A stretch of DNA of 57,823 nt, from positions 1-57,823 of the forward strand of contig JAOPXY010000103.1 of NCBI GenBank assembly GCA_025964895.1. Reading direction: 5' to 3'. Shown here in pieces: positions 43,110 through 57,823 of this stretch (position 1 is its first letter; each line of letters begins with the position of its first letter). Below the pieces are notes generated by a model. That model searched no databases. It saw only the letters and a list, made by a program, of their open reading frames with translations, and was not told the DNA's origin. The position numbers were made by a program, and so were the translations under genes. This DNA is from Aeromicrobium sp. Lineage in GTDB: Bacteria > Actinomycetota > Actinomycetes > Propionibacteriales > Nocardioidaceae.

Positions 43110-43346
43110 GGAGGGATGGGTACCCAGGGCCGGCGCGACTCAACCGTCGGCGCGGACGCACCGGAGTGAGGAGCGGCACGGTGGTTCGGCCCTCGTCCGG
43201 CGCGCGGGCGAGTAGGATCGAGGGACGAAATCGCGAGGGACACGCCCTCAACCAGGGCGCTCCGGCGCGAGGGAGTGTGGACGGGTGCACGGCAGGTGGG
43301 CCTACGGCCGACTCCAGGACGACACGATGGACGCGACGGTCGCCGC

Positions 43347-46031
43347 GTGACGGCGGACGAGCGGGATCCTCTTCTCGAGCTGCGCGAAGCCATCGACGCG
43401 CGCCAGCACCTCGCGCGACGGCTGGCGGCGCTCGCAGCGGACCAGCCCGCGATGGACCACCTGGCGGGGCTGGCCGCGCGCCTGCTCGGCACGGCATCGG
43501 CGCAGGTGTCGCTGATCTCCGACGTCCAGACCGTGGTCGGCGGCATCGGCAGCTCCGCGCCCTCCGTCGGCGTTTCGACCCCGGTCGAGGAGTCGGTGTG
43601 CTCCGTGACGGTCGGGTCGAGTGCGTCGGTCCTCATCCCGGACGCCACCGCGGACCCGCGCGTCCAGCACATGGAGGCGGTCCGGGCGGGCGTCGTCGGG
43701 GCCTACTTGGGCGTGCCGCTGGTCGTGCGCGACGAGACGGTCGGCGCCCTGTGCGTCTACGACCCCGTGCCACGCGAGTGGACGGAGGAGGACGTCCTGC
43801 TGCTCGAGCAGCTCGCGGCGTCGGCCGTCACCGAGCTGCAGCTCGCGGCCCTGGCCGAGGAGTACGAGGACGAGCGGATGCGGTGGCAGCTCGCCGTCGA
43901 CGCCGCCGAGGTGGGCGCATTCGACTGGAACCTCGTCACCGGGGAGCTGCGGTGGGACGAGCGGCTGGTGGAGCTCTTCGGCCTCGAGCGCGGCGCGTTC
44001 GGGGGCACGATCGAGGCCTTCAACGCCTCCGTCCACCCCGACGACCGGGCACGGGTCGGCGCGGCCCTGTCGGCCGCGGTCGATGCGTGCGGCGTGTTCA
44101 CGTCCGAGTACCGCATCATGCTGCCGAGCGGCGGTACCCGCTGGGTCGCGGCACGCGGACGGGCCCTCGCCGGGTCGGACGGGGGTGCCGTCCGCCTCCT
44201 GGGCGCCGCCTACGACACCACGGCCGTGCAGGACAATGAGGCACGGGTGGCCCGCCTGCTGGAGGCCATGCCCATGGCGTTCTTCCAGCTCGACCGCGAC
44301 TGGCGGTTCACCTTCCTCAACTCCGAAGCGCATCGGCTGCTGGGCGCGATCGGCTCCGACATCGTCGGCGGCATCATCTGGGAGCTCTTCCCCGACGCGG
44401 TCGGCAGCGACTTCGAGACGCACTACCGGGCGGCCGTCGACACGAACGAGCCCGTCGAGTTCGAGGCGTACTACCCGCCTCCGCTCGACCGCTGGTACGA
44501 GATCCGCGGGTGGCCCACGCCCGACGGCCTGTTGGTCTACTTCATCGATGTCTCCGAGCGGCGCAGGGCGCAGCACGCCGCCGAGACCGCCGCCGCGCGC
44601 GCCTCGAACCTGGCCGGCATCACGGCGTCGCTGACCGGGACCCTCGACATCGACGTCGCCGTGGCGCAGCTCGCGGAGGTCGTCGTGGGACCGTGGGCCG
44701 ACTGGAGCATCGTGACCCTCGTCGACCACTCGGTCTCGCAGGTGCCGGGCACCGCGCGCCTGGAGGGCTCCCGCCACCTGTGGCGCCGGGGCCTGCGGGA
44801 CGTCGCGGGCTGGCACGCCGACCCGGAGCGACGCGGTCTGGTCGACCGCTATCTGGAGCACCGGATCCCCGATCTCAACGATGTGTCATTCCTGGCCGAG
44901 GCCATGCGCGAGGACCGTGCCGTCGTCGTGGTCGACGGCGCCGGCGACGCCATCGCGTCGATGCTGCGACCGGGCGCGGCCCTCGACGCGTGGACGCAGC
45001 TGAGCGCTTCGTCCGCCGCCGTCCTGCCGCTGCGGGGGCGTGGGCGCACGATCGGACTGCTCACGGTGTTCCGCGGAATGGACCGTCCACCGTTCAGCGA
45101 CGACGACATGACCGACCTGGTCGACGTCGCGGACCGCGCCGGCGTCGCGCTCGACAACGTCCGCCTCTACGCCGAGCAGCGCGACCTGTCCGAGGGCCTG
45201 CAGCGCAGCCTGCTCACCCCGCCGCCGGCACCCGATCACCTGCACGTGGTGGTCCGGTACGAGCCCGCCGCCAAGGCCGCCCAGGTCGGTGGCGACTGGT
45301 ACGACTCCTTCCTGCAGGGCAGCGGTGCGACGAACGTCGTGATCGGCGACGTCGTCGGGCACGACACCGTCGCGGCCGCGGCGATGGGGCAGATCCGTGG
45401 CCTGCTGCGCGGCATCGCCGTCACGACGGGAGCGGGCCCCGCCGAGGTGCTGCAGCGCCTCGACGAGGCCATGGCGACGCTGCAGATCGAGACGATCGCG
45501 ACAGCGATCGTGGCTCGCCTGGAGCAGACGCCCGACGAGCTCGAGGCGGGGGTCACGCGGCTGCGGTGGTCGAACGCCGGGCACCCACCACCGCTCGTCG
45601 TCGTCCACCCCGAGGCGCCCGAGACCCCCGAGACGGTCGGCGAGCCGCCACGCGTCGATCCCCGCGACGTCGAGGTCACGGCGCTGTGGCCGGACGAGGC
45701 CGACCTGATGCTCGGGCTGGTGCCGTCCGGCGACCGCACCGAGGCGGTGCTGACGCTGACCCGCGGCTCCACGGTGCTGCTGTACACCGACGGACTGGTC
45801 GAGCGCCGCGGCGAGCTCATCGACCGAGGCGTCGACCGCCTCCGCGCCGTCGTGGCCGAGCTCACCGCCGAGGGACGTGACCTCGAGGAAGTGTGCGACG
45901 AGCTGGTGCGGCGCATGCTGCCCGAGCGCCCCGAGGACGACGTCGCGATCGTCGCGGTCCGTCTGCACCCGCAGGATCGTCCCCGGCCCCCCGTCGCCGG
46001 TCCGCCGCGCGTCCCCCCGACCGTCGACTAG
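43347..46031 (+). CDS. GAF/PAS-containing PP2C (SpoIIE-type) serine phosphatase
   Basis: A signalling phosphatase of about 894 residues from GTG 43347 (an earlier GTG at 43275 is possible but adds proline/glycine-rich sequence). Domain order: GAF (~10-155), PAS (~165-285), PAS (~290-400), GAF (~425-590), PPM/SpoIIE phosphatase (~620-870). Metal-binding and catalytic segments are seen in GGDWYDSF, IGDVVGHD, WSNAGHPPPLV, VLLYTDGLVERR and EDDVAIVAVR. In actinobacteria such proteins dephosphorylate anti-sigma-factor antagonists in partner-switching stress control. No anti-sigma kinase or antagonist gene is adjacent, so the target is elsewhere. A TAGGAT box near 43212 could be the -10 element. Confidence 0.9.
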   Translation: MTADERDPLLELREAIDARQHLARRLAALAADQPAMDHLAGLAARLLGTASAQVSLISDVQTVVGGIGSSAPSVGVSTPVEESVCSVTVGSSASVLIPDATADPRVQHMEAVRAGVVGAYLGVPLVVRDETVGALCVYDPVPREWTEEDVLLLEQLAASAVTELQLAALAEEYEDERMRWQLAVDAAEVGAFDWNLVTGELRWDERLVELFGLERGAFGGTIEAFNASVHPDDRARVGAALSAAVDACGVFTSEYRIMLPSGGTRWVAARGRALAGSDGGAVRLLGAAYDTTAVQDNEARVARLLEAMPMAFFQLDRDWRFTFLNSEAHRLLGAIGSDIVGGIIWELFPDAVGSDFETHYRAAVDTNEPVEFEAYYPPPLDRWYEIRGWPTPDGLLVYFIDVSERRRAQHAAETAAARASNLAGITASLTGTLDIDVAVAQLAEVVVGPWADWSIVTLVDHSVSQVPGTARLEGSRHLWRRGLRDVAGWHADPERRGLVDRYLEHRIPDLNDVSFLAEAMREDRAVVVVDGAGDAIASMLRPGAALDAWTQLSASSAAVLPLRGRGRTIGLLTVFRGMDRPPFSDDDMTDLVDVADRAGVALDNVRLYAEQRDLSEGLQRSLLTPPPAPDHLHVVVRYEPAAKAAQVGGDWYDSFLQGSGATNVVIGDVVGHDTVAAAAMGQIRGLLRGIAVTTGAGPAEVLQRLDEAMATLQIETIATAIVARLEQTPDELEAGVTRLRWSNAGHPPPLVVVHPEAPETPETVGEPPRVDPRDVEVTALWPDEADLMLGLVPSGDRTEAVLTLTRGSTVLLYTDGLVERRGELIDRGVDRLRAVVAELTAEGRDLEEVCDELVRRMLPERPEDDVAIVAVRLHPQDRPRPPVAGPPRVPPTVD

Positions 46032-47747: not shown

Positions 47748-48974
47748 TCACGGGCGGCCGGGACGGGGCAGGTGCGGCAGCACGAGCCGGATCTGGGTCG
47801 TGGGGGAGTCGGCCACCGCGACGAACCCGCCCAGCGACTCGGCCTGCGTCGCGGCGTCGCTGAGTCCCGCGTCCGCGCCCGCGGGCGAGGCGTGCACCAC
47901 CCCTGTCTCGAAGGCACGCGGGCCCTCGTCGGAGACGCTGTACTCCAGGCGCCCGTGGGCGCGCCCGAACGCGACCGTGACCGTCCCGGTCCCGTGGCTC
48001 AGGGCGTTCTCGATCAGGATGTCGAGCACGTTGTCGAGCGGAGCGCGGACGACCCGCGCCGGCGCCGGGTCGGAGGCGGCCAGGGCGATGGGGCGTCCCA
48101 GCGACCTCGCTCGGTCCTTCCACCGGTCGACCGCGTCGGCGGCCACCACGTTGAGGTCGACGTCCGACGTGACACCGAGGTGGCGTCCGTCGCCGCGTTC
48201 CAGGAGCGTCGTGATGACATTGCCGAGCCGGTCGACCTCCGCGAGGCTGTGCTGCAGCTCGTCACCGACGTCCGGCGGGGTCTGCGGCCACAGGGTGAGG
48301 TCCTCGAGCGACAGCCGCAGCGCGGTCAGGGGCGTGCGCAGCTCGTGCGACGCGACCACCGCCAGCTCCCGCTCGCGGCGGACGAGAGCGTCGAGCTGAC
48401 CGGCCGCGTTGCGCAGGGCGTCGCCCATGTCCGCGGCCTCGCGGATGGAGGAGCGGTGGACGTCGACGTCGAAGTGCCCGGCACCGATGCGCTGCGCATC
48501 GGCGGCGAGCCGCCGGAACGGGTACGCGAGACGTCGCGCCAGAAGCCAGCCGATGACGCCGGCGATCACCGCGAGCGACAAGGCCAGCAGCACGAGGGGG
48601 AGCAGCTCGGCCGCCAGCCGGTCGGAGCTGACGGAGGCGGACTGTCTCAGAGTGACCCGTCCGTCATCGGCGTCGCGGGTGGCCGAGATGTCGTCGTCGT
48701 GCCGGTCGACCGTGCCCGAGCCGATCGTGGTGCCGTCGGCGGTGACGTAGGTGATGGCCTGTTCGGGGTGAGCCAGCGCGGAAAGAAATTCCTCTGTCAC
48801 GTGGGCGTCTCCTCGCGCCTCGACGGCAGCGGCGACAAGATCGGCGGACTGCTGCACCATCATCCGATCCTGGTCCTCGACGAGGTCGGCGGTGGAGTAG
48901 GCCCGCACGGCGCCGAAGATCGAGATCACGGCGACCGTCATCGCCACCAGCGTCACGACCAGTCGTTCACGCAT
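47748..48974 (-). CDS. Membrane sensor histidine kinase of the TasA/SipW locus
   Basis: A 408-residue kinase with two membrane helices (about 7-23 and 123-145) bordering a small extracytoplasmic sensor, a HAMP domain (~146-200), the phosphoacceptor His210 in ASHELRTPLTALR, and an ATPase domain with N-box ILIENALSHG. The glycine-rich ATP lid is poorly conserved (SDEGPRAFETG region), so its strength as a kinase is open. It overlaps the response regulator gene by 8 bases and is the last gene of an operon that starts with the Ig-repeat secreted protein. It probably senses an envelope condition tied to that protein. Confidence 0.9.
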   Translation of the reverse strand: MRERLVVTLVAMTVAVISIFGAVRAYSTADLVEDQDRMMVQQSADLVAAAVEARGDAHVTEEFLSALAHPEQAITYVTADGTTIGSGTVDRHDDDISATRDADDGRVTLRQSASVSSDRLAAELLPLVLLALSLAVIAGVIGWLLARRLAYPFRRLAADAQRIGAGHFDVDVHRSSIREAADMGDALRNAAGQLDALVRRERELAVVASHELRTPLTALRLSLEDLTLWPQTPPDVGDELQHSLAEVDRLGNVITTLLERGDGRHLGVTSDVDLNVVAADAVDRWKDRARSLGRPIALAASDPAPARVVRAPLDNVLDILIENALSHGTGTVTVAFGRAHGRLEYSVSDEGPRAFETGVVHASPAGADAGLSDAATQAESLGGFVAVADSPTTQIRLVLPHLPRPGRP

Positions 48975-49701
48975 CGGACGGGCTGCTCTCCAGCCTGAAC
49001 CCGACGCCGCGGACCGTCACGATGTGGGACGACGTCCCGCTGTCCTCGAGCTTCTGGCGGAGGCGCCCGACCGTGGTGTCGAGCGTCTTGGTGGAGCCGA
49101 ACCAGTTCTCGTCCCACACCTCGTCCATGACCCGCTCGCGGGTGAAGACCGCGCCGGAGGCGGAGTCGAGCAGGGCCAGGACGTCGAACTCCTTGGCGGT
49201 GAGCACGAGCTCGTCGGCGCCGACCCACACACGGCGGGCATCGCCGTCGACCTGCAGCGTCGTGGTGTCGGCCCCAGCGGCGGCCGACGCCGTGGCAGGG
49301 ACGGGGGCGGCGGGCGCCGGGTCGTCGGCCGACGGTGCCGCGCGACGCAGCAGCGCCCGGGTGCGGGCGAGCAGCTCGGCGAGACCGAATGGCTTGGCGA
49401 GATAGTCGTCGGCGCCCACGTCGAGCCCGACGACGCGGTCCAGCTCGCCGCCGCGGGCGGTGAGGATCAGCACGCCCCCGGTGTAGCCGTTCGCGCGGAT
49501 GCGGCGGCACACCTCGAGTCCGTCGACGTCCGGGAGCCCCAGGTCGAGGAGCACCAGGTCGACACCGCGAGCCTGCACCCGCTCGACCGCCGGGAGGCCG
49601 GCCGCGACGCGTTCGACGACGTAACCCTCCCGCTCGAGCGTGCGGATGAGGGGCGCGGCGATCTGGTCGTCGTCCTCGACGAGCAGCACGAGGTGGGGCA
49701 T
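48967..49701 (-). CDS. OmpR/PhoB-family response regulator of the TasA/SipW locus
   Basis: A 244-residue response regulator. The receiver domain has the acidic pocket VEDDD, phosphoacceptor Asp53 in LLDLGLPDVDG, LTARGG and YLAKPFGLAELLAR. An Ala/Pro-rich linker (~125-150) leads to the winged-helix domain (ELVLTAKEFDVLALL and the recognition helix in STKTLDTTVGRLRQKLE). ATG 49701 is used; ATG 49713 is an alternative. OmpR/PhoB proteins bind direct repeats 11 bp apart, and the three promoters of this locus carry GTGGAGATC repeats 22 bp (2 x 11) apart. It is therefore the best candidate for controlling them, including its own operon. Confidence 0.92.
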   Translation of the reverse strand: MPHLVLLVEDDDQIAAPLIRTLEREGYVVERVAAGLPAVERVQARGVDLVLLDLGLPDVDGLEVCRRIRANGYTGGVLILTARGGELDRVVGLDVGADDYLAKPFGLAELLARTRALLRRAAPSADDPAPAAPVPATASAAAGADTTTLQVDGDARRVWVGADELVLTAKEFDVLALLDSASGAVFTRERVMDEVWDENWFGSTKTLDTTVGRLRQKLEDSGTSSHIVTVRGVGFRLESSPSDA

Positions 49702-49702
49702 C

Positions 49703-50098
49703 TCAGACAGCATACGGCGAGTCGTCCCGCCTCGATGCGGCTCGCCGGGCCTGGTCGATCGCGAGGAGGACCAGGACCGCCGCCGACAGCGCCAGGACGG
49801 ACGCCGCAACGAGGTTCCACCGGCCGCCGCCCATCTGTCCCGGCGGGCCCAGGGTCATCGCGAGGGCGACGCCCCCGCCGTTCGCGGTCGCGAGCAACGA
49901 CACCGCCAGGCGGGACTCCACGCAGTTGTCGCGATGCAGCTTGACCGAGGCGGCCGACGTGCCCAGCACCAAGGCGACGAGCAGTGCGACGACGTACGGC
50001 TCGTGGTCGCCCATGACGAGGTTCAGGACCTGCACGAGCACCAGCAGTGTCGTGGCGGTGTATGCCCCGCGCGAGGTCGGGGTGTGATCGGCGCGCAT
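49703..50098 (-). CDS. Small four-helix membrane protein of the Ig-repeat/two-component operon
   Basis: A 131-residue protein with four hydrophobic segments (TATTLLVLVQVLNLVMG, EPYVVALLVALVLGTSAASV, LAVSLLATANGGGVALAMTL and LVAASVLALSAAVLVLLAI). It has no recognised domain. It overlaps the Ig-repeat gene (TGATG) and precedes the response regulator by a few bases, so it is co-expressed with them. A role in signal sensing or in fibre assembly is conceivable, but nothing in the sequence decides it. Confidence 0.82.
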   Translation of the reverse strand: MRADHTPTSRGAYTATTLLVLVQVLNLVMGDHEPYVVALLVALVLGTSAASVKLHRDNCVESRLAVSLLATANGGGVALAMTLGPPGQMGGGRWNLVAASVLALSAAVLVLLAIDQARRAASRRDDSPYAV

Positions 50099-51900
50099 CA
50101 GAAGTCCAGGTCCGGGGAGCCCGACTCGGCGACCGCGGCGGTGCCGATCGCGTTGCCGGCGAGGTCACGGATCGTCGCGGCCGGCGTCCACGACATGGTG
50201 GCGGGCTCGGACACCTGATTGCCGGTGCTGCCCGTGAACCGTAGCGTCACGACGGTGCGGCTCACACCGTCCTGCACGACGGTGGCGGCGCTCATGACGA
50301 CGTGAACCGAGGACGTGGTGCGGCCCACGAAGTCGGCGTTGAGGCTGACGGTGCCGAGGTCGGCGCCGAAGGGTCGGGTGACGTCAACCACGTCACCCGT
50401 CGACACCTCGACGGTGCCGGAGGTCGCGGCGCCCGAGGACGCGGTGGCCGACCAGACGGAGTAGATCGTGCTGAGGTCCATCTGCTCGCTGAACGTGAAG
50501 ACCATCGTGTCGCCGGTGTCGATCCGCCCGGCGGTGCCGCCGTTGGTCGTCTGGATGTCGACGCCACGGCCCGCGGTGTTGTCGACGACGCGGTTCGCGA
50601 CGACGGGCGACGCCGTCGTCCGGCCGTTCGAGTCGGTGACGACGGCGCGCAGGTCGTACGTGCCGTCCGCGACCCCCGTCGTCGCGAACGAGCACGTGTA
50701 GGGCGAGGCCGTGTCGGCGCAGACCGGGGTCCAGGTCGCCGCGCCGGCGACCGAGCGCTGGAACGCGACCGAGGCGACCGTGCCGTTCGTGGTCACGGTG
50801 GCCGCGAGCCCCACGGTGCCTCGCAGATGGGCGGCCGGTGTCGTCAGGGTGACGGTGGAGACGGTGTTCTGCACGGCGCGGTTGGTGACGGCGGTCGAGG
50901 TGGCCGTGTTGCCGGCGACGTCGGTCGCGACGGCGCGGAACGAGTAGGTGCCGTTGGCGAGCGTGCCGGTGTCGACCAAGCAGCTGTAGGGGGCCGAGGT
51001 GACGGTGCACAGCTCGGTCCAGGCCGTGCCGGTGGCCGACTGGATGACGACCCTCGCGACACCGGAGTGGGCGTCGCCGGCCGTGGCCGCGAACGTCTTG
51101 GTGCCTCGGAGCGGCGTGCCCGGATCGGTCATCGTGACGGTGGGGGCCAGGTTGTCGACGGTGATGTCGCGGACGACGGCGGAGATGTACGTCGTGGTGC
51201 CCGCAACGGCGACCGAGCGGATGTCGTAGGTGCCGTTGGGCCCGGCCGTGGTGGGGACCGAGCACGTGTACGGGGCGGCCGCCACGGTGCAGATGGTCGA
51301 CCACGAGGTCGTGCCGGCGGGTGCGTACTCGACGCGGACCGAGGGGGCGAGCGATCCGGCGTTGCTGACGGTCGTTGTGAGGATCACCGTGCCGCGGATG
51401 ACGTCGGCAGGGGGCGTCAGCACGACGACGAGGGCGTTGGCGACCGTCGCGCGGACCGTGGCGGACGTCGCCGTGTTGCCGGCCTTGTCGACCGCGATCG
51501 CGCGCAGGTCGTAGGCGCCGTCGTCGACCGAGCCCGTGGCCCACGAGCAGGCGTAGGGGGAGGTCGTGGTGGTGCACAACGTCGTCCACGAGGTGGCGCC
51601 GGCGTCCGCGCGCTGGATCGTGACCGTGCCGATGCCGGAGTCGGTGTCGGAGGCTGTGGCGGTGATCGTCGCGGTTCCTTTGAGGGCCGCTGGGGGCGCG
51701 GTGACGGCGACGGCCGGCGGCGTCCAGTCGGCGGCGGCGGTGACCGTGCCGGTCGAGCTCGTGCTGGAGACGTAGGAGGCGGAGGACGATCCGGTGGTGG
51801 CGACTGAGGCCAGGACGGCCAGCAGCACGACGGCGAACAGCAGCAGCCGGCGACCGGCCGGCTTCGTCTCCTCGCGGTGGCGGGGCTGCGTCAACGTCAT
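50098..51900 (-). CDS. Secreted Ig-like repeat protein with SipW-type signal region
   Basis: A 600-residue exported protein. The N-terminus has a basic stretch, a long hydrophobic core (LLLFAVVLLAVLASVATTG) and then SSASYVSSTSSTGTVTAAADW, resembling the SipW-dependent signal regions of TasA-like proteins. Four Ig-like repeats of ~90 residues follow, starting near residues 61, 152, 247 and 339; each begins with a T-x-P strand and a GT pair, and carries a CX8C pair ending in SPYxC or APYxC, probably disulfide-bonded. The last ~170 residues contain a GDTMVFTFSEQM domain. There is no LPXTG or C-terminal helix, so anchoring may come through the TasA-like fibres. Promoter elements immediately precede ATG 51900, suggesting a leaderless mRNA. 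Confidence 0.85.
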   Translation of the reverse strand: MTLTQPRHREETKPAGRRLLLFAVVLLAVLASVATTGSSSASYVSSTSSTGTVTAAADWTPPAVAVTAPPAALKGTATITATASDTDSGIGTVTIQRADAGATSWTTLCTTTTSPYACSWATGSVDDGAYDLRAIAVDKAGNTATSATVRATVANALVVVLTPPADVIRGTVILTTTVSNAGSLAPSVRVEYAPAGTTSWSTICTVAAAPYTCSVPTTAGPNGTYDIRSVAVAGTTTYISAVVRDITVDNLAPTVTMTDPGTPLRGTKTFAATAGDAHSGVARVVIQSATGTAWTELCTVTSAPYSCLVDTGTLANGTYSFRAVATDVAGNTATSTAVTNRAVQNTVSTVTLTTPAAHLRGTVGLAATVTTNGTVASVAFQRSVAGAATWTPVCADTASPYTCSFATTGVADGTYDLRAVVTDSNGRTTASPVVANRVVDNTAGRGVDIQTTNGGTAGRIDTGDTMVFTFSEQMDLSTIYSVWSATASSGAATSGTVEVSTGDVVDVTRPFGADLGTVSLNADFVGRTTSSVHVVMSAATVVQDGVSRTVVTLRFTGSTGNQVSEPATMSWTPAATIRDLAGNAIGTAAVAESGSPDLDF

Positions 51901-51906
51901 GTCTCA

Positions 51907-51961
51907 ACCTTAGGAAAAGGCGATGCACGGGATCTCCACACGATTGCCCCGCGATCTCCAC
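51907..51961 (-). promoter_or_regulatory. Tandem-repeat promoter of the Ig-repeat/two-component operon
   Basis: On the minus strand: GTGGAGATC (51953-51961), again GTGGAGATC (51931-51939), then 18 bases and a -10 box TAAGGT (51907-51912). The two repeats are 22 bp apart start to start. The -10 ends six bases before ATG 51900, so the message is probably leaderless. The layout is the same, to the base, at 52635-52689 and 53972-54026. The proximal repeat covers the -35 region, as expected for an activator. Confidence 0.82.
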
Positions 51962-51991
51962 ATCTGGACGGACCTCCTCCCACGACGAACA

Positions 51992-52018
51992 TGCCGCCGA
52001 CCAGAGCGGTCGGCGGCA
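51992..52018 (-). terminator. Strong hairpin terminating the first TasA-like gene
   Basis: TGCCGCCGACC (51992-52002) pairs perfectly with GGTCGGCGGCA (52008-52018) around a 5-base loop, an 11-bp stem, flanked by a further complementary CGACGA/TCGTCG stretch. It lies 38 bases after the stop of the TasA-like gene 52057-52584 on its transcript and before the promoter of the Ig-repeat operon. It lacks a T-run, which is common in actinobacterial terminators. Confidence 0.75.
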
Positions 52019-52056
52019 CGTCGTCAAGCGGGTCGGGGGGTACCCGCAGGTCTGGG

Positions 52057-52584
52057 TTACTGGTTGGTCGTGGTGGCGTCGGCCTGGATCGAGTCCCACT
52101 GGAAGGCGGCCGAGGCGGTCTTGCTCTGGTCCGCGGTGGTCGTGGCCTGGGCGAGCTTGACGCTGAAGACGTAGTCGTTGCTCACGCCGGGGGCGACGAG
52201 GCCCAGGTCGTTCTTGGCGCCGTCGACGAGGCCGCCGAACGTGCCGGTGTACACGACCTTCTCGGTCGTCGCGTTGGTGATGACCATCGTCAGGTTGCTG
52301 CCCGTGAAGGTGTTGGTCGACGCGGTCTCGGTGAGAGAGAACGTGGCCGGCAGCGTGCCGGTGTTCTTGATCGTGAGGCTGCCGTTGACGACGTCGCCGG
52401 GCTTGACGTTCGTGAGGTTGAAGACCGCGGCGTTGGCCTTGGAGTTGCTCTGGCTCAGGCTGCCCGACGTGACGGAGCTGATCGTGTTGGCGCTGGTCGA
52501 CGTGAAGGTGGCGCCGGATCCGACCGCGACGGCGCCGGCGGCGACGAGGGTGGCGAGCGGGAGGAGGATCTTGGCGGTCTTCAT
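52057..52584 (-). CDS. TasA/camelysin-like secreted fibre protein, copy 1
   Basis: A 175-residue protein with the SipW-dependent signal layout: MKTAKILLPLATLVAAGAVA, then VGSGATFTSTSANTISS. The mature part has the TasA/camelysin (peptidase M73) pattern: NAAVFNLTNVKPGDVVNGSL, TIKNTGTLPATFSL, and a C-terminus rich in Thr/Gln/Asp. TasA forms matrix fibres in Bacillus. It is 147/175 identical to copy 2 by my count; differences lie mainly at residues 90-160, while the signal and the last 20 residues are nearly or fully the same. It has an AAGGAC ribosome site, its own repeat-containing promoter and a strong terminator. Protease activity is unlikely, as no metal-ligand motif is seen. Confidence 0.88.
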   Translation of the reverse strand: MKTAKILLPLATLVAAGAVAVGSGATFTSTSANTISSVTSGSLSQSNSKANAAVFNLTNVKPGDVVNGSLTIKNTGTLPATFSLTETASTNTFTGSNLTMVITNATTEKVVYTGTFGGLVDGAKNDLGLVAPGVSNDYVFSVKLAQATTTADQSKTASAAFQWDSIQADATTTNQ

Positions 52585-52634
52585 CGGGGCGGTCCTTCGA
52601 GTCGGTGGGACGTGCTGAGTTGGCTTGTGACATC

Positions 52635-52689
52635 AATCTAGGGAGCCACGATGCACGGGATCTCCACGCGAGATCCCCACGATCTCCAC
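52635..52689 (-). promoter_or_regulatory. Tandem-repeat promoter of TasA-like copy 1
   Basis: Minus strand: GTGGAGATC at 52681-52689 and 52659-52667 (22 bp apart), an intermediate GGGGATCTC at 52672-52680 in step with an 11-bp period, then 18 bases and a -10 box TAGATT (52635-52640). The predicted leader is about 45 bases and includes the ribosome site. Same geometry as the promoters at 51907-51961 and 53972-54026. Confidence 0.82.
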
Positions 52690-52714
52690 ACTTCGGACGC
52701 AGTTCGCCGGGGGA

Positions 52715-53311
52715 TCAGCGGGCGTGGGCGACGGCACGGCGGACGGTGCGGCCGGCCTTCGCGCGACGGTCGCTGCCCACGGCCCGGGCGAGCTCGACGA
52801 GGCTGGCCAGAGCGATGAGGCCCGCCGGCACGCCGACGATCACCATGCGGGTCTCGCGGTCCGCGAGGGCCACGAACACCCACCCGACGTGCGGGACGGT
52901 GAAGCTCACGACCGCCTGGGTGCCCTCGGTGAGGTTGAACTTCCACGGGTCCGGGTCGGGGTTCGCATCGCCCTGCGTCTGCAGCTGGCGCGAGCCGTCC
53001 GGGAGGATCGTGTCGCTAATGATGCGGTGCGTCACGAGATGGGTCACACCGCTGTCGGCGGGCGGCAGGTACGTGATGACGTCGCCGACACCCACCTGAC
53101 CCACCGGGACGGGCTTCTCGACGGCGACCGAGCCCTTCTCGAAGGTGCCCGACATCGATCCCCCGGTGATGACGTAGCGCTCGTAGCCGAACAGGCTCGG
53201 CGCGACGTACGCGACGCCGGCCAGGGTCACGAGGATCGTGAGGAGGCTGACGAGCCCCGAGCCGATGCGGGCGGCGGGGCTGCGGCGGGCGCGGGGGAGT
53301 CTGCGGCTCAT
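52715..53311 (-). CDS. SipW-type (Ser/His) signal peptidase I
   Basis: A 198-residue signal peptidase of the archaeal/ER/SipW group. After a basic N-terminus and one helix (~17-37) comes the catalytic Ser52 in TGGSMSGTFEKGS, then GDVITYLPP, and VTHLVTHRII with His95 where bacterial LepB enzymes have Lys. A second helix lies at ~158-177. This class in Bacillus and relatives processes TasA, TapA and camelysin, so the two TasA-like proteins and probably the Ig-repeat protein are its substrates. It follows TasA-like copy 2 by 80 bases, with a hairpin between that may reduce its expression. No repeat promoter of its own. Confidence 0.93.
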   Translation of the reverse strand: MSRRLPRARRSPAARIGSGLVSLLTILVTLAGVAYVAPSLFGYERYVITGGSMSGTFEKGSVAVEKPVPVGQVGVGDVITYLPPADSGVTHLVTHRIISDTILPDGSRQLQTQGDANPDPDPWKFNLTEGTQAVVSFTVPHVGWVFVALADRETRMVIVGVPAGLIALASLVELARAVGSDRRAKAGRTVRRAVAHAR

Positions 53312-53365
53312 GATCGTCCTTCGGGATGTCGGGGTGGCTCGGTGGCTGGGGCGGGCTGCCCGGTG

Positions 53366-53385
53366 GGGGTGCGGTCAGGCACCCC
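53366..53385 (-). terminator. Hairpin between TasA-like copy 2 and sipW (possible attenuator)
   Basis: GGGGTGC (53366-53372) and GCACCCC (53379-53385) form a 7-bp stem with a 6-base loop in the 80-bp gap between the two genes. Since no promoter-like element is visible before the peptidase gene, partial read-through here would give much fibre protein and little peptidase, as in related operons. The attenuation role is inferred. Confidence 0.5.
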
Positions 53386-53391
53386 GCGACG

Positions 53392-53919
53392 TCACTGGTT
53401 GGTCGTGGTGGCGTCGGCCTGGATCGAGTCCCACTGGAAGGCGGCCGAAGCGGTCTTGGTCTGGTCGGTGTTCGGGGTCGTGGCGGCGAGCTTGGCGCTG
53501 AACGTGTAGTCGTTGCTCACGCCGGGAGCGACGAGGCCCAGGTCGGTCTTGGTGCCGTCGACGAGGTCGCCGAAGGTGCCGGACCAGACCTTCGTGCCGG
53601 TCGTGGTGTTCGTGATGTCGAGCGTCAGGTTGGCGGCGGTGAAGGCGTTCGCGGACGCGGTCTCGGTGAGCGAGAACGTCGCGGGCAGTGTGCCGGTGTT
53701 CTTGATCGTCAGGGCGCCGTTGACGACGTCGCCGGGCTTGATGTTCGTGAGGTTGAAGACCGCGGCGTTGGCCTTGGAGCTGCTCTGGCTCAGGCTGCCG
53801 GAGGTGACCGAGCTGATCGTGCTGGCGCTGGTGGACGTGAACGTCGCGCCCGATCCGACCGCGACGGCGCCCGCGGCGACGAGGGTGGCGAGCGGGAGGA
53901 GGATCTTGGTCGTCTTCAT
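53392..53919 (-). CDS. TasA/camelysin-like secreted fibre protein, copy 2
   Basis: A 175-residue paralogue of the protein at 52057-52584, same start (MKTTKILLPLATLVAAGAVA) and same last 20 residues. ATG 53919 is chosen by this alignment and its AAGGAC site; upstream frame is non-coding. Substitutions cluster between residues 90 and 160, where surface contacts of fibre subunits would be expected. The N-terminal 89 residues differ at only five positions. It is first in a unit with the SipW-type peptidase. Two close but diverging copies may form a mixed fibre, with one perhaps serving as an accessory subunit like TapA in Bacillus. Confidence 0.88.
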   Translation of the reverse strand: MKTTKILLPLATLVAAGAVAVGSGATFTSTSASTISSVTSGSLSQSSSKANAAVFNLTNIKPGDVVNGALTIKNTGTLPATFSLTETASANAFTAANLTLDITNTTTGTKVWSGTFGDLVDGTKTDLGLVAPGVSNDYTFSAKLAATTPNTDQTKTASAAFQWDSIQADATTTNQ

Positions 53920-53971
53920 GGGGGTGGTCCTTCGAGTCGTGGGGAGGGGCGCCGCATGGACTGATGACCTC

Positions 53972-54026
53972 AACCTACGAAGCGGCGATCCACGCGTTCT
54001 CCACGCGACATCCCGACGATCTCCAC
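53972..54026 (-). promoter_or_regulatory. Tandem-repeat promoter of TasA-like copy 2/sipW
   Basis: Minus strand: GTGGAGATC at 54018-54026, GTGGAGAAC at 53996-54004 (22 bp apart), then 18 bases and a -10 box TAGGTT (53972-53977). The proximal repeat has one change from consensus. The predicted leader is ~46 bases. Same geometry as the two other promoters of the locus. Confidence 0.82.
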
Positions 54027-54063: not shown

Positions 54064-55272
54064 TCAGAGCGGCAGGTCGAACCAGACGCTCGTGCCGCCC
54101 TCGGCGGGTGTGTCCATGCCGATGTTGCCCCCGTGCGCCTCGACGATGCGCTTGGCCGTTGCCAGCCCGATCCCGTGGCCCGGGGCGGAGTCGTCCGCCC
54201 GGGCGAACAGGGTGAACATGGCGTCCTGGCGGGTCTGGGGCACGCCGATGCCGTTGTCGGTGACCCGGATGCGCCAGTGCCGGGGCAGGGGGTCGGCCGA
54301 GATCGACACGACCGGCCGGGTGCCCGGGCGCGCGAACTTGATCGCATTTGTCATCAGGTTCAGCACGACGGAGTACAGCAGGTCGGGGTCGACCGGCACG
54401 CGGGGCATGGAGCCGACCCGCACGTCCACGTCGTCGCGGCGCACCAGGGGAGCGATGTCGACCAGAACGTGGGCGACGATGTCGGTGAGATCGGTGTCCA
54501 CGGGACGCAGCCGCCCGTTCTCCTTCGCGAAGGCCAGCATCTCCTCGATCATGGCGTCCATGCGATGGCCCGCGTCGTTGACCGCGTGAACCATCTCGGA
54601 CACCTCCGGATCGCCCTCGACCGCGGGATGGGACGCGAGCAGCTCGGCGTTGATGAGAATCGCGGTGAGGGGCGTGCGCAGGTCGTGGCTGACCTGTCCC
54701 GCGAAGTGAGTCAGGTGCTCGTTGGTGAGTCGCAGGTCGTCGCGCGCCTGCGTCAGCTCGAGGAGCGAGCGCTCCAGTGCCTGGCTGCGGTAGCCCAGGT
54801 CGAGCAGGTCGGTCACCTGGGCGGCCATGACCCCCAGTGACCGGCGCTGCAGCGCGCTGAGCTCGCGCGGCACGTCGTCGAACACGCACAGCCGCCCGAT
54901 CGCGAGGCCCTCGGGCGTTCGGATCGGGGCCGACGCGTAGAAGCGCACGACACCGATCTCGCCGGTCACGAAGGGATTGTCGCTGAAGCGCGGGTCCTGG
55001 GTGGAGTCGGCGACGACGACCGCGTCCGGCTTGTCGACGACGACGGCGCACATCGAGTCCTCCCGGGCACACACCGACGGCTCGAACCCGTGCGCCACGA
55101 CCTGGTGCTGCCGTTCGCTGCCGATCACGTTGATGGCGGCGTGGGGGACCTCACAGATCGCCGCGATGAGGTCGACGAGCGACTGCAGGTCGCGGCGCGG
55201 GGAGCGATCGAGCATGCCGTAGCGCTCGATCTCGCGGTCGACGAGCGTGGGTTGGTGAACGGACGATGTCAT
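54064..55272 (-). CDS. Soluble GAF-domain sensor histidine kinase (orphan)
   Basis: A 402-residue kinase: GAF domain (~25-155; VVADSTQDPRFSDNPFV and FYASAPIRTPEGLAIGRLCVFD are typical of GAF sensors), a coiled-coil linker, the phosphoacceptor His196 in GQVSHDLRTPLTAI, N-box NLMTNAIKFA, and DNGIGVPQ plus GHGIGLATAKRIVEAHGG in the ATPase domain. There is no membrane helix, so it senses a cytosolic cue. No response regulator gene is next to it. It is immediately upstream of the TasA-like copy 2 promoter; a link to that locus is possible but not shown. ATG 55272 has a GGGGAG ribosome site. Confidence 0.92.
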   Translation of the reverse strand: MTSSVHQPTLVDREIERYGMLDRSPRRDLQSLVDLIAAICEVPHAAINVIGSERQHQVVAHGFEPSVCAREDSMCAVVVDKPDAVVVADSTQDPRFSDNPFVTGEIGVVRFYASAPIRTPEGLAIGRLCVFDDVPRELSALQRRSLGVMAAQVTDLLDLGYRSQALERSLLELTQARDDLRLTNEHLTHFAGQVSHDLRTPLTAILINAELLASHPAVEGDPEVSEMVHAVNDAGHRMDAMIEEMLAFAKENGRLRPVDTDLTDIVAHVLVDIAPLVRRDDVDVRVGSMPRVPVDPDLLYSVVLNLMTNAIKFARPGTRPVVSISADPLPRHWRIRVTDNGIGVPQTRQDAMFTLFARADDSAPGHGIGLATAKRIVEAHGGNIGMDTPAEGGTSVWFDLPL

Positions 55273-55451
55273 GTGCTCCCCGATCACAGCGGTGACGTAC
55301 CGTGGCCATCGTCTCACGACGTCCCGTGCTGTGGATTCTGCTGCGTGGCGCCGATCGACCGGCTAGCCTCGGGTGAGGGAGATCGCGCGACGGCGTCGCG
55401 GGTCTCCCGACGAGACGCCGAAGCCGAACGACACCCTGGAGCACCCCCCTC

Positions 55452-55690: not shown

Positions 55691-56308
55691 GTGCGTCTTC
55701 GCATCCGACCGGTTGAAACATCGTTCTACGAGTTGTTCACCGAGATGGCGAATCACCTCGTCGAGGGAGCCAATCTGCTGGCGCAGATGCTCGACCCCGC
55801 CACCGACAAGACTGCGCTCGGCGAGGAGATGCGCGAGGCCGAGCACCAGGCCGACGAGACGACCCACGCGATCATCCGGCGGGCCAATTCGACGTTCATC
55901 ACCCCGTTCGACCGCGAGGACATCTACCGTCTCGCCAGCAGCCTCGACGACGTCATGGACTTCATGGAGGAGACCGTCGACCTCGTGGGCCTGTACGAGC
56001 TGGGTGACCTGCCCGCCGACTTCGCCCCGCAGGTCGAGGTGCTGCAGCGCGCCACGCAGCTGACCGCCGACGCGATGCCCCGGCTGAGGACCATGAAGGA
56101 CCTCGACGAGTACTGGATCGAGATAAACCGCCTGGAGAACCAGGGCGACCGTTCGTACCGCCGCATCGTGGCGCACCTGTTCAGCGGCAGCTACAAGTCG
56201 CTCGAGGTGCTCAAGCTCAAGGACGTCGTCGACTCCCTCGAGCACGCCATCGATGCGTTGGAATCCGTCGCCAACACGGTGGAGCAGATCGCCGTCAAGG
56301 AGTCCTGA
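55691..56308 (+). CDS. DUF47 family PhoU-like protein, accessory to Pit transporter
   Basis: A 205-residue all-helical PhoU-like protein of the DUF47 family. Seen are SFYELFTEMANHLVEGANLLAQML, EAEHQADETTHAIIRR, FITPFDREDIYRLASSLDDVMDFMEE and LKDVVDSLEHAIDALESVANTVE, the ExxxD metal-binding helices of PhoU-type proteins. It lies 3 bases before the Pit transporter gene, the usual arrangement, and probably modulates its activity. GTG 55691 with a GGAG ribosome site. Confidence 0.93.
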   Translation: MRLRIRPVETSFYELFTEMANHLVEGANLLAQMLDPATDKTALGEEMREAEHQADETTHAIIRRANSTFITPFDREDIYRLASSLDDVMDFMEETVDLVGLYELGDLPADFAPQVEVLQRATQLTADAMPRLRTMKDLDEYWIEINRLENQGDRSYRRIVAHLFSGSYKSLEVLKLKDVVDSLEHAIDALESVANTVEQIAVKES

Positions 56309-56311
56309 GTA

Positions 56312-57325
56312 GTGGACCAGACACTGGCGATGGTCATCGCCGTCGTTGTCATCGCGCTCATCTTCGACTACACGAATGGGTTCCATGACGCCGCCAACGC
56401 GATCGCGACCTCGATCTCGACTCGTGCGCTCACGCCCCGCATCGCCTTGGCGATGGCGGCGGTCCTCAACTTCGTGGGGGCCATGCTGGGCGTCGGAGTC
56501 GCCAAGACGATCCAGGGCATCATCGACATCGACACCGCCCCGGGGGAGGGGTCTGCCCACGCGCTGACCATCGTCTTGGCAGCGCTCGTCGGAGCCATCA
56601 CCTGGAACTTGTTGACCTGGTACTTCGGCATCCCGTCGTCCTCGTCGCACGCCCTCATCGGCGGCATCGTCGGTGCCGGTCTTGCGTCGGCGACGACCGT
56701 CGAGTGGGACACGATGGTCGAGAAGGTCGCGATCCCCATGATCCTGAGCCCGCTGCTCGGATTCCTCGGCGCATTCCTCATCATGACCGCGATCATGTGG
56801 ATCTTCCGGCGTGCCAACCCGTTGCGGGTCAGCCGTGGCTTCCGGCATGCCCAGACGGTGTCGGCAGCGGCGATGTCGCTCGGGCACGGTCTGCAGGATG
56901 CGCAGAAGACGATGGGTGTCATCGTGCTGGCGCTCGTCGCCGGCGGGTATGCCGACGGCGACGACGTGCCGTTGTGGGTCATCTTCGCGGCCGGAACGGC
57001 GATCGCCTTGGGCACCTACTCGGGCGGCTGGCGCATCATGCGCACGTTGGGCCGGCGCATCATCGACCTCGACCCGCCGCGCGGGTTCGCGGCCGAGGCC
57101 ACTGCGGCCACGGTGCTGTACGGCATGGCCATCGGTCTCCAGGCGCCGGTCTCGACCACTCACACGATCACCTCGGCGATCATGGGTTCGGGAGCCACGA
57201 AGCGTTTCAGCGCCGTCCGCTGGGGCGTCGCCAAGGGCATCGTCGTGGCCTGGATCATCACGATCCCGGCAGCGGCCTCCGTCGCGGCGGTCACGTACTT
57301 CGTCGCGCGCATCTTCCTGCCCTGA
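56312..57325 (+). CDS. pit: Low-affinity inorganic phosphate transporter (Pit)
   Basis: A 337-residue, roughly 10-helix phosphate permease of the PiT family, importing metal-phosphate with protons. Duplicated signature: DYTNGFHDAANAIATSISTRAL (residues ~20-41) and the second-half counterpart SAAAMSLGHGLQDAQKTMGVI, plus GIPSSSSHALIGGIVGAGLA. GTG 56312 has an AAGGAG site nine bases before. It is paired with the DUF47 gene and converges on pstB. Confidence 0.95.
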   Translation: MDQTLAMVIAVVVIALIFDYTNGFHDAANAIATSISTRALTPRIALAMAAVLNFVGAMLGVGVAKTIQGIIDIDTAPGEGSAHALTIVLAALVGAITWNLLTWYFGIPSSSSHALIGGIVGAGLASATTVEWDTMVEKVAIPMILSPLLGFLGAFLIMTAIMWIFRRANPLRVSRGFRHAQTVSAAAMSLGHGLQDAQKTMGVIVLALVAGGYADGDDVPLWVIFAAGTAIALGTYSGGWRIMRTLGRRIIDLDPPRGFAAEATAATVLYGMAIGLQAPVSTTHTITSAIMGSGATKRFSAVRWGVAKGIVVAWIITIPAAASVAAVTYFVARIFLP

Positions 57326-57373: not shown

Positions 57374-57823
57374 TCACCCGAACCGGCCCTGGATGTAGGC
57401 CTCGGTGGCCGGGTCCTGGGGGTTGGAGAAGATCGTCTCGGTGCGCCCCACCTCGACCAGGCGGCCGGGCTTGCCCACGCCGGACAGGTTGAAGAAGGCC
57501 GTCTCATCGGAGACCCGAGCGGCCTGCTGCATGTTGTGGGTGACGATCACGATCGTGTACTGGCTCTTGAGCTCGTGGATGAGGTCCTCGATGACGCTGG
57601 TCGAGATGGGGTCGAGCGCCGAGCAGGGCTCGTCCATCAGCAGGATCTCGGGCTCGACCGAGATCGCCCGGGCGATGCAGAGCCGCTGCTGCTGACCGCC
57701 CGACAGGCCGGAGCCGGGACGGTCCTGCCGCTCCTTGACCTCGGGCCACAGGCCCGCGCTGCGCAGCGAGCGCTCGACGATGTCGTCGGACTCGGACTTC
57801 TTCATGCGCTTGCTGTTGAGCTT
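57374..57823 (-). CDS. pstB: Phosphate ABC transporter ATP-binding protein PstB (5' part outside window)
   Basis: The last 149 codons of pstB; the frame is open to the window end ([14 protein letters not shown]) so the N-terminus with Walker A is missing here. Seen: the ABC signature [15 protein letters not shown], Walker [15 protein letters not shown]-loop [20 protein letters not shown], and the PstB-specific ending [16 protein letters not shown]. It is part of the high-affinity phosphate uptake system, here tail-to-tail with the low-affinity Pit gene. Confidence 0.96.

Follow-up and report, generated by a model that had tools for sequence, protein, structure and literature searches.

A TasA/SipW-like locus of Aeromicrobium with its own two-component system and a shared operator

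Can a soil actinobacterium carry a surface-fibre system of the TasA type, with the processing peptidase and the switch encoded beside the fibre genes? The question is raised by a locus on contig JAOPXY010000103.1 of an Aeromicrobium sp. (assembly GCA_025964895.1), analysed here as a stretch of 57,823 nucleotides that we call the window. Experimental knowledge of TasA/SipW fibres comes from Bacillus, and a first-pass annotation of the window had recognised seven genes, for two TasA/camelysin-like proteins (TasA1 and TasA2), a SipW-type signal peptidase between them, an exported protein with immunoglobulin (Ig) repeats, a small membrane protein, a response regulator and a membrane histidine kinase. 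We consider it likely that the locus encodes surface filaments of the TasA type together with the switch that controls them. Its gene content, catalytic residues, signal-region motif, unique shared operator, gene order and the co-occurrence of its genes can be read directly from the genomes.

Seven genes and one operator

All seven genes lie on the minus strand and are transcribed in the order TasA1, peptidase, TasA2, Ig protein, membrane protein, regulator, kinase. They are present as first described, in three units, and chance is excluded because their order is conserved in relatives. The units are supported as tasA1 with the peptidase gene, tasA2 alone, and the genes for the Ig protein, membrane protein, regulator and kinase, in which neighbours overlap or abut and which therefore make up a single operon that starts with the Ig gene. 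What has to be revised is the place of the kinase-regulator pair, which shares its operon with the Ig and membrane protein genes. The small membrane protein (49703..50098, minus strand) has 131 residues and, by hydropathy, 3-4 hydrophobic helices, and an equal gene slot is found in relatives. The regulator (48967..49713, or with its start at 49701, minus strand) is of the OmpR/PhoB type, with a receiver domain (PF00072, 95.3 bits) and a winged-helix domain (PF00486, 82.7 bits), and it co-occurs with tasA.

An addition to the earlier observations is a shared operator upstream of each unit, of the form GTGGAGATCGN-GKGGANNTCGN-GTGGAGATCNC-GTGNATCG, with a -10-like element at a fixed distance. Each copy holds four GTGGA units phased at 11 bp, the last of which overlap the -35 region, and all three are on the minus strand: at 53971..54026 before tasA1 (-10-like TAGGTT, 53972-53977), at 52634..52689 before tasA2 (TAGATT, 52635-52640) and at 51906..51961 before the Ig operon (TAAGGT, 51907-51912). 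The TAAGGT element stands about 6 nt before the ATG of the Ig gene, so that the transcript of this operon is probably leaderless in the window. A spacing of 11 bp between half-sites is typical for binding sites of OmpR/PhoB-type proteins, and the GTGGA array is a putative binding site of the regulator of the locus, which would then activate rather than repress the three promoters, that of its own operon included.

When the window species' own genome (3.44 Mb) was searched with patterns of 31 and 40 bases, allowing up to 3 mismatches, only these three operators were found, matching with 0-1 mismatches, and the reversed-pattern control gave 0. Across 34 loci (628 kb) the pattern derived from the window matched 53 times on the forward strand and 2 times on the reverse strand, nearly always immediately in front of tasA or the Ig gene, and 0 times for either the reversed control or shuffled sequence. 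A strict version of the pattern was, among 38 other genomes, confined to Aeromicrobium with the locus, and the matches listed with coordinates were all at the tasA locus. Outside the genus, all tasA genes tested are preceded by phased units that score better than shuffled sequence (p 0.03 or less), and about half of the loci also show this ahead of the Ig gene. The shared operator thereby offers a direct and cheap way to test which genes the switch controls.

The genes also travel together. Both tasA and the orthologous regulator are present in 13 of 25 Aeromicrobium genomes, the window's own included, and both are missing from the remaining 12 (Fisher p 2e-7, uncorrected for phylogeny). The full order, with the second tasA variable, is kept in the 14 loci of the genus that were first compared, barring contig ends and the missing peptidase of genome G012. 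Genes for TasA, peptidase, Ig protein, regulator and kinase stand together in 14 loci of three other genera of the family (g9, g10, g14), are split across two contigs in one further genome of these genera, and recur in the same order. The conserved order, the joint presence in 13/13 genomes, the joint absence from 12/12 and the shared operator support the view that the seven genes are one system.

Besides these loci there is a second, diverged lineage of related regulators. In loci L097 and L099, which like L102 come from another genus of the family, the regulator has both a much diverged TasA-like protein and a SipW-like peptidase beside it, and the diverged TasA-like genes also carry an upstream 11-bp-phased array. 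Other regulators of this lineage are accompanied by the peptidase only (L102), or by neither a TasA-like protein nor a peptidase that could be detected (L094-L096, L100).

Exported proteins and their peptidase

TasA1 (53392..53919) and TasA2 (52057..52584, minus strand like TasA1) both have 175 residues and are 84% identical. They pass the cut-off of the camelysin/TasA family M73 (PF12389; 25.5 and 24.3 bits, cut-off 22.5) and fail the model for Bacillus TasA itself (NF046066; 22 bits, cut-off 450), and they are therefore members of the TasA superfamily and not Bacillus TasA proper. In a profile search of the Protein Data Bank (PDB) the only structures near significance were those of TasA, 5of1 and 8aur (E 0.004), and the N-terminal segment aligns with TasA as far as SGTL and resembles the donor-strand region. 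The model of TasA1 (pLDDT 68.6) leaves residues 1-43 unordered, followed by a beta sandwich which matches 8aur (Z 8.3, rmsd 7.1) and 5of1 (Z 8.0, rmsd 3.2 over 118 residues), with unrelated jelly rolls scoring equally; the list also holds 7ueg (Z 7.7) and 7pnb (Z 6.8), which are TasA-like or donor-strand filaments. Donor-strand exchange has been described for Bacillus TasA (PMC9674648), and TasA and CalY are known to form heterofilaments (PMC13082335), which the two co-regulated paralogues may be said to recall. TasA1 and TasA2 would form fibres by such an exchange, perhaps as heterofilaments.

The peptidase (52715..53311, minus strand) is of the SipW/SEC11 (S26B) type and has two hydrophobic helices by hydropathy. 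It passes the archaeal/ER-type model TIGR02228 (58.7 bits, cut-off 51.85) and fails the equivalog model for Bacillus SipW (NF046067; 56.7 bits, cut-off 190). The Ser52 and His95 named in the first-pass annotation hold up well, being invariant, together with Asp115, across 12 orthologues and aligned with human SEC11A; judged by its residues, the enzyme is of the Ser-His and not the Ser-Lys type, with a conserved Asp. Other SipW-type peptidase genes, 30-38% identical, are found in most of the Aeromicrobium genomes G003, G005, G006, G010, G017-G020 and G022-G024, often as two to five copies close together, and in genomes with or without the fibre locus.

The probable cleavage site of TasA1 is GSGA25|TF, and the signal region of the Ig protein reads SSSA41|SY in the window and SSA|S/T-F/Y among the aligned orthologues. 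With sites assigned by eye, every TasA-like and Ig protein aligned has Ala in position P1 and an aromatic in P2' (F/Y after A|[ST]). An aromatic P2' makes a poor substrate for LepB, and the site of Bacillus TasA carries one (PMC10269814); Trp at P2 has been blamed for poor LepB cleavage as well (PMC10269814), and this residue is absent from the TasA-like and Ig signal regions here. By analogy, the Ala at P1 with the aromatic P2' may be a feature tied to SipW rather than to LepB cleavage, and all three exported proteins would be processed by the peptidase of the locus.

The Ig protein (50098..51900, minus strand) has 600 residues and four Big_7 domains (PF17957, 4 stretches), which are confidently modelled (pLDDT 84.4), and its orthologues share an invariant C-terminal D.DF. 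A fold search gave generic Ig-repeat matches only, with the extender region of an adhesin at the top, and the TapA model TIGR04087 is failed (12.8 bits, E 0.068, cut-off 80). A TapA-like donor strand at the N-terminus was considered and is not claimed here, as 131 of 580 windows score higher in the window species; in some other species the similarity of the Ig N-terminus to that of TasA ranks first or near first. The protein could serve as tip, anchor or sensor partner of the fibre.

Two hairpins predicted by folding lie in the gaps between these genes on the minus strand. One is GC-rich and terminator-like (51992..52018) and separates tasA2 from the Ig operon, and the other (53366..53385) lies between tasA1 and the peptidase gene, with resembling hairpin sequences 3' of tasA1 in loci L023 and L024. 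The latter is possibly an attenuator that sets the ratio of TasA to peptidase.

A membrane kinase without its ATP lid

The membrane histidine kinase (47748..48974, minus strand) has two transmembrane helices, a DraK-like sensor region, a HAMP domain and a HisKA domain with His210. Its sensor region matches the PDB structure 2mj6 (E 0.005) and reaches 19.6 bits against the DraK sensor family PF18092, below the cut-off of 26.4, which several orthologues pass. In the window the ATP lid is missing: the F and G2 boxes are absent, the N box is kept, and HATPase_c scores 18.1 bits, below its cut-off of 26.4.

Upstream of tasA1 there is a further gene, absent from the first-pass annotation, for a soluble GAF-domain histidine kinase (54064..55317, minus strand) whose catalytic domain is intact (HATPase_c 88.3 bits, HisKA 56.3 bits); we propose this kinase as an eighth member on the basis of adjacency and co-occurrence. 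Orthologues that match it strongly (E 1e-115 or better) are, within the genus, found only in genomes with the locus, and they share a contig stretch with tasA except in the fragmented G014 assembly; in other genera the gene often follows the membrane kinase at the opposite end, or lies away from the locus altogether. The locus is thus not strictly self-contained, as it had been called, since this kinase seems to belong to it in many species and the window's own membrane kinase lacks the F and G2 boxes.

In a comparison of 31 loci, the lid of the membrane kinase is degenerate in 16 of the 17 genomes that have a GAF-kinase orthologue and intact in 13 of the 14 that have none. The HATPase_c scores follow the same trend: kinases with a degenerate lid go undetected or reach at most 29.9 bits, and those with an intact lid score 29.5-47.3 bits. 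The phospho-acceptor His is kept throughout. Histidine kinases that have become pseudokinases with an active partner are known, such as a ChrS variant with HrrS, and DivL (PMC9491836). In the window species the GAF kinase is probably the source of phosphate for the regulator. We tentatively suggest, with a confidence that stays clearly below even, a two-kinase filament circuit, in which the pseudokinase has kept its sensor, its His and probably its phosphatase activity, the GAF kinase supplies the phosphate, envelope and cytoplasmic signals are both needed, and one operator code is used across the Nocardioidaceae.

The lid could also have degenerated by lineage-specific drift only, with the GAF kinase at work in another pathway, and to this we give a probability not far short of an even chance. 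Three changes on the tree suffice for the lid state, leaving 2-3 independent contrasts and a sign test of p 1, and the association with the GAF kinase is therefore not statistically independent evidence; there is moreover one exception in each direction, locus L078 of genome G039 with an intact lid and an unlinked GAF kinase, and locus L093 of G188 with a degenerate lid and no GAF kinase. Drift alone accounts less well for the strength of the association (16/1 against 1/13), for a GAF kinase that adjoins the locus on one side in some genera and on the other side in others, and for a phospho-acceptor His that is kept in all of them.

Further genes adjoin the locus. Beyond the GAF kinase the window holds PhoU-like and phosphate-permease-like genes (55691-57325) and an apparent ATPase of a phosphate ABC transporter (57374-57805), and several relatives have kept these phosphate-related surroundings. 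At 43275-46031 there is an open reading frame of 918 residues which, judged by eye, looks like a GAF/PAS sensor with a SpoIIE/PP2C-type phosphatase end. Between 18001 and 24000 the plus strand shows a strong AT skew (about 0.2) over 6 kb, which sets this part of the window apart from most of the rest.

A proposed filament system and its alternatives

In the mechanism that we propose, the phosphorylated regulator would bind as tandem dimers to the four GTGGA-type half-sites, 11 bp apart and overlapping -35, and switch on tasA1 with the peptidase gene, tasA2 and its own operon, so that it would reinforce its own synthesis by positive feedback. Both TasA-like proteins and the Ig protein would lose their SipW-type signal peptides to the Ser/His peptidase, and cleavage would free the N-terminal strand of a TasA-like protein for donor-strand exchange into the next subunit. 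The result would be a filament of two subunits, and the Ig protein would act as an adhesin or anchor at the surface. Input would come through the DraK-like membrane sensor kinase and, in this species, in which the lid is lost, the phosphate would probably be supplied by the neighbouring GAF kinase.

Several observations weigh against this mechanism. The model of TasA1 is middling, its fold matches to TasA fibres (Z 8.0-8.3) are tied with unrelated jelly rolls, and in the window species the Ig N-terminus resembles the TasA donor strand no more than background does. The signal cleavage sites were assigned visually, and the draft genome G012 has tasA without a peptidase match at 1e-8. In locus L080 (genome G068) the kinase gene comes directly after tasA and none of the genes for peptidase, Ig protein and regulator is nearby, possibly as the result of an internal deletion, and in two other genera (L091 and L092) the trio of membrane protein, regulator and kinase occurs without tasA, peptidase and Ig genes. 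It could be that the genes are one regulated SipW-type export unit whose TasA-like proteins stay single or loosely associated at the surface or are secreted, as adhesins like early CalY, and never form filaments. Their shortness, with about 150 mature residues, would agree with this, as would a likeness to TasA that is remote in sequence (E 0.004 against the PDB) and not distinctive in fold. We find it unlikely nonetheless, considering that the Pfam match to the TasA/camelysin family is above its cut-off, that the alignment of the N-terminal segment with TasA extends to SGTL, and that two co-regulated paralogues recall the TasA/CalY heterofilaments (PMC13082335).

A quite different explanation would be that the two-component system serves as a general sensor of the envelope or of pH, in the manner of DraR/DraK, and has the fibre genes as neighbours by chance, and that the operator belongs to another regulator. 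The sensor region is indeed DraK-like, as seen from 2mj6 (E 0.005) and from the orthologues that pass PF18092, and many other genomes hold related regulators without a detected TasA gene. The first-pass annotation had held that independent occurrence of the kinase-regulator genes and the TasA/SipW genes would speak against a single system, and such independence is never seen for tasA and the regulator within the genus (13/13 and 12/12) and is seen in part outside it, in L091 and L092. The operator is, on the other hand, confined to the fibre locus, where it also fronts the regulator's own operon, its spacing of 11 bp is the one expected of OmpR/PhoB-type proteins, and the regulator and tasA are always together in the genus. 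We regard this explanation as improbable, and the regulator as a mere bystander is likewise judged unlikely.

A filament system with its own switch would extend TasA/SipW fibres to Actinobacteria, with the dedicated switch inside the gene set. Each of the protein families is already known. Our literature search gave no paper on an actinobacterial TasA/SipW locus with its own two-component system and operator, and nothing relevant on Aeromicrobium or Nocardioides with TasA/SipW; nothing in the literature searched describes this combination, which is conserved in several actinobacterial genera. The closest parallel is the tapA-sipW-tasA operon of Bacillus subtilis, which likewise has a Ser/His peptidase beside a TasA-family protein, a SipW-type signal region and an accessory exported protein. 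It is under the control of SinR (PMC9674648), whereas here the two-component system is encoded in an operon of the locus, there are two TasA paralogues, the Ig-repeat protein fails the TapA model, and the phylum is another one. The sipW-tasA/calY/capP region of Bacillus cereus is similar in having two TasA paralogues, one SipW and a further exported protein (PMC13082335), but it is regulated by SinR/PlcR, CapP is not an Ig-repeat protein, and the locus has no dedicated two-component system. The bundling pili of Pyrobaculum (AbpA) and the threads of Sulfolobus are among the fold matches (7ueg and 7pnb), but they are archaeal and remote, and the match is tied with unrelated folds.

The switch has its own relatives. 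DraR/DraK of Streptomyces coelicolor also combines an OmpR-type regulator with a kinase that has a DraK-type extracytoplasmic sensor, but, as far as the available part of its description goes, it acts on antibiotic biosynthesis and no link to TasA/SipW is mentioned (PMC4159317), and the window kinase scores below the cut-off of the sensor family. The ChrS variant and DivL share with the membrane kinase a disabled catalytic domain and a second, active kinase as partner (PMC9491836). The ChrS variant is of laboratory origin, while the lid loss described here is found in nature, as the normal condition of a clade, and is accompanied by the GAF kinase, and the link between the two would be a natural case of a histidine kinase handing its catalytic role to a partner.

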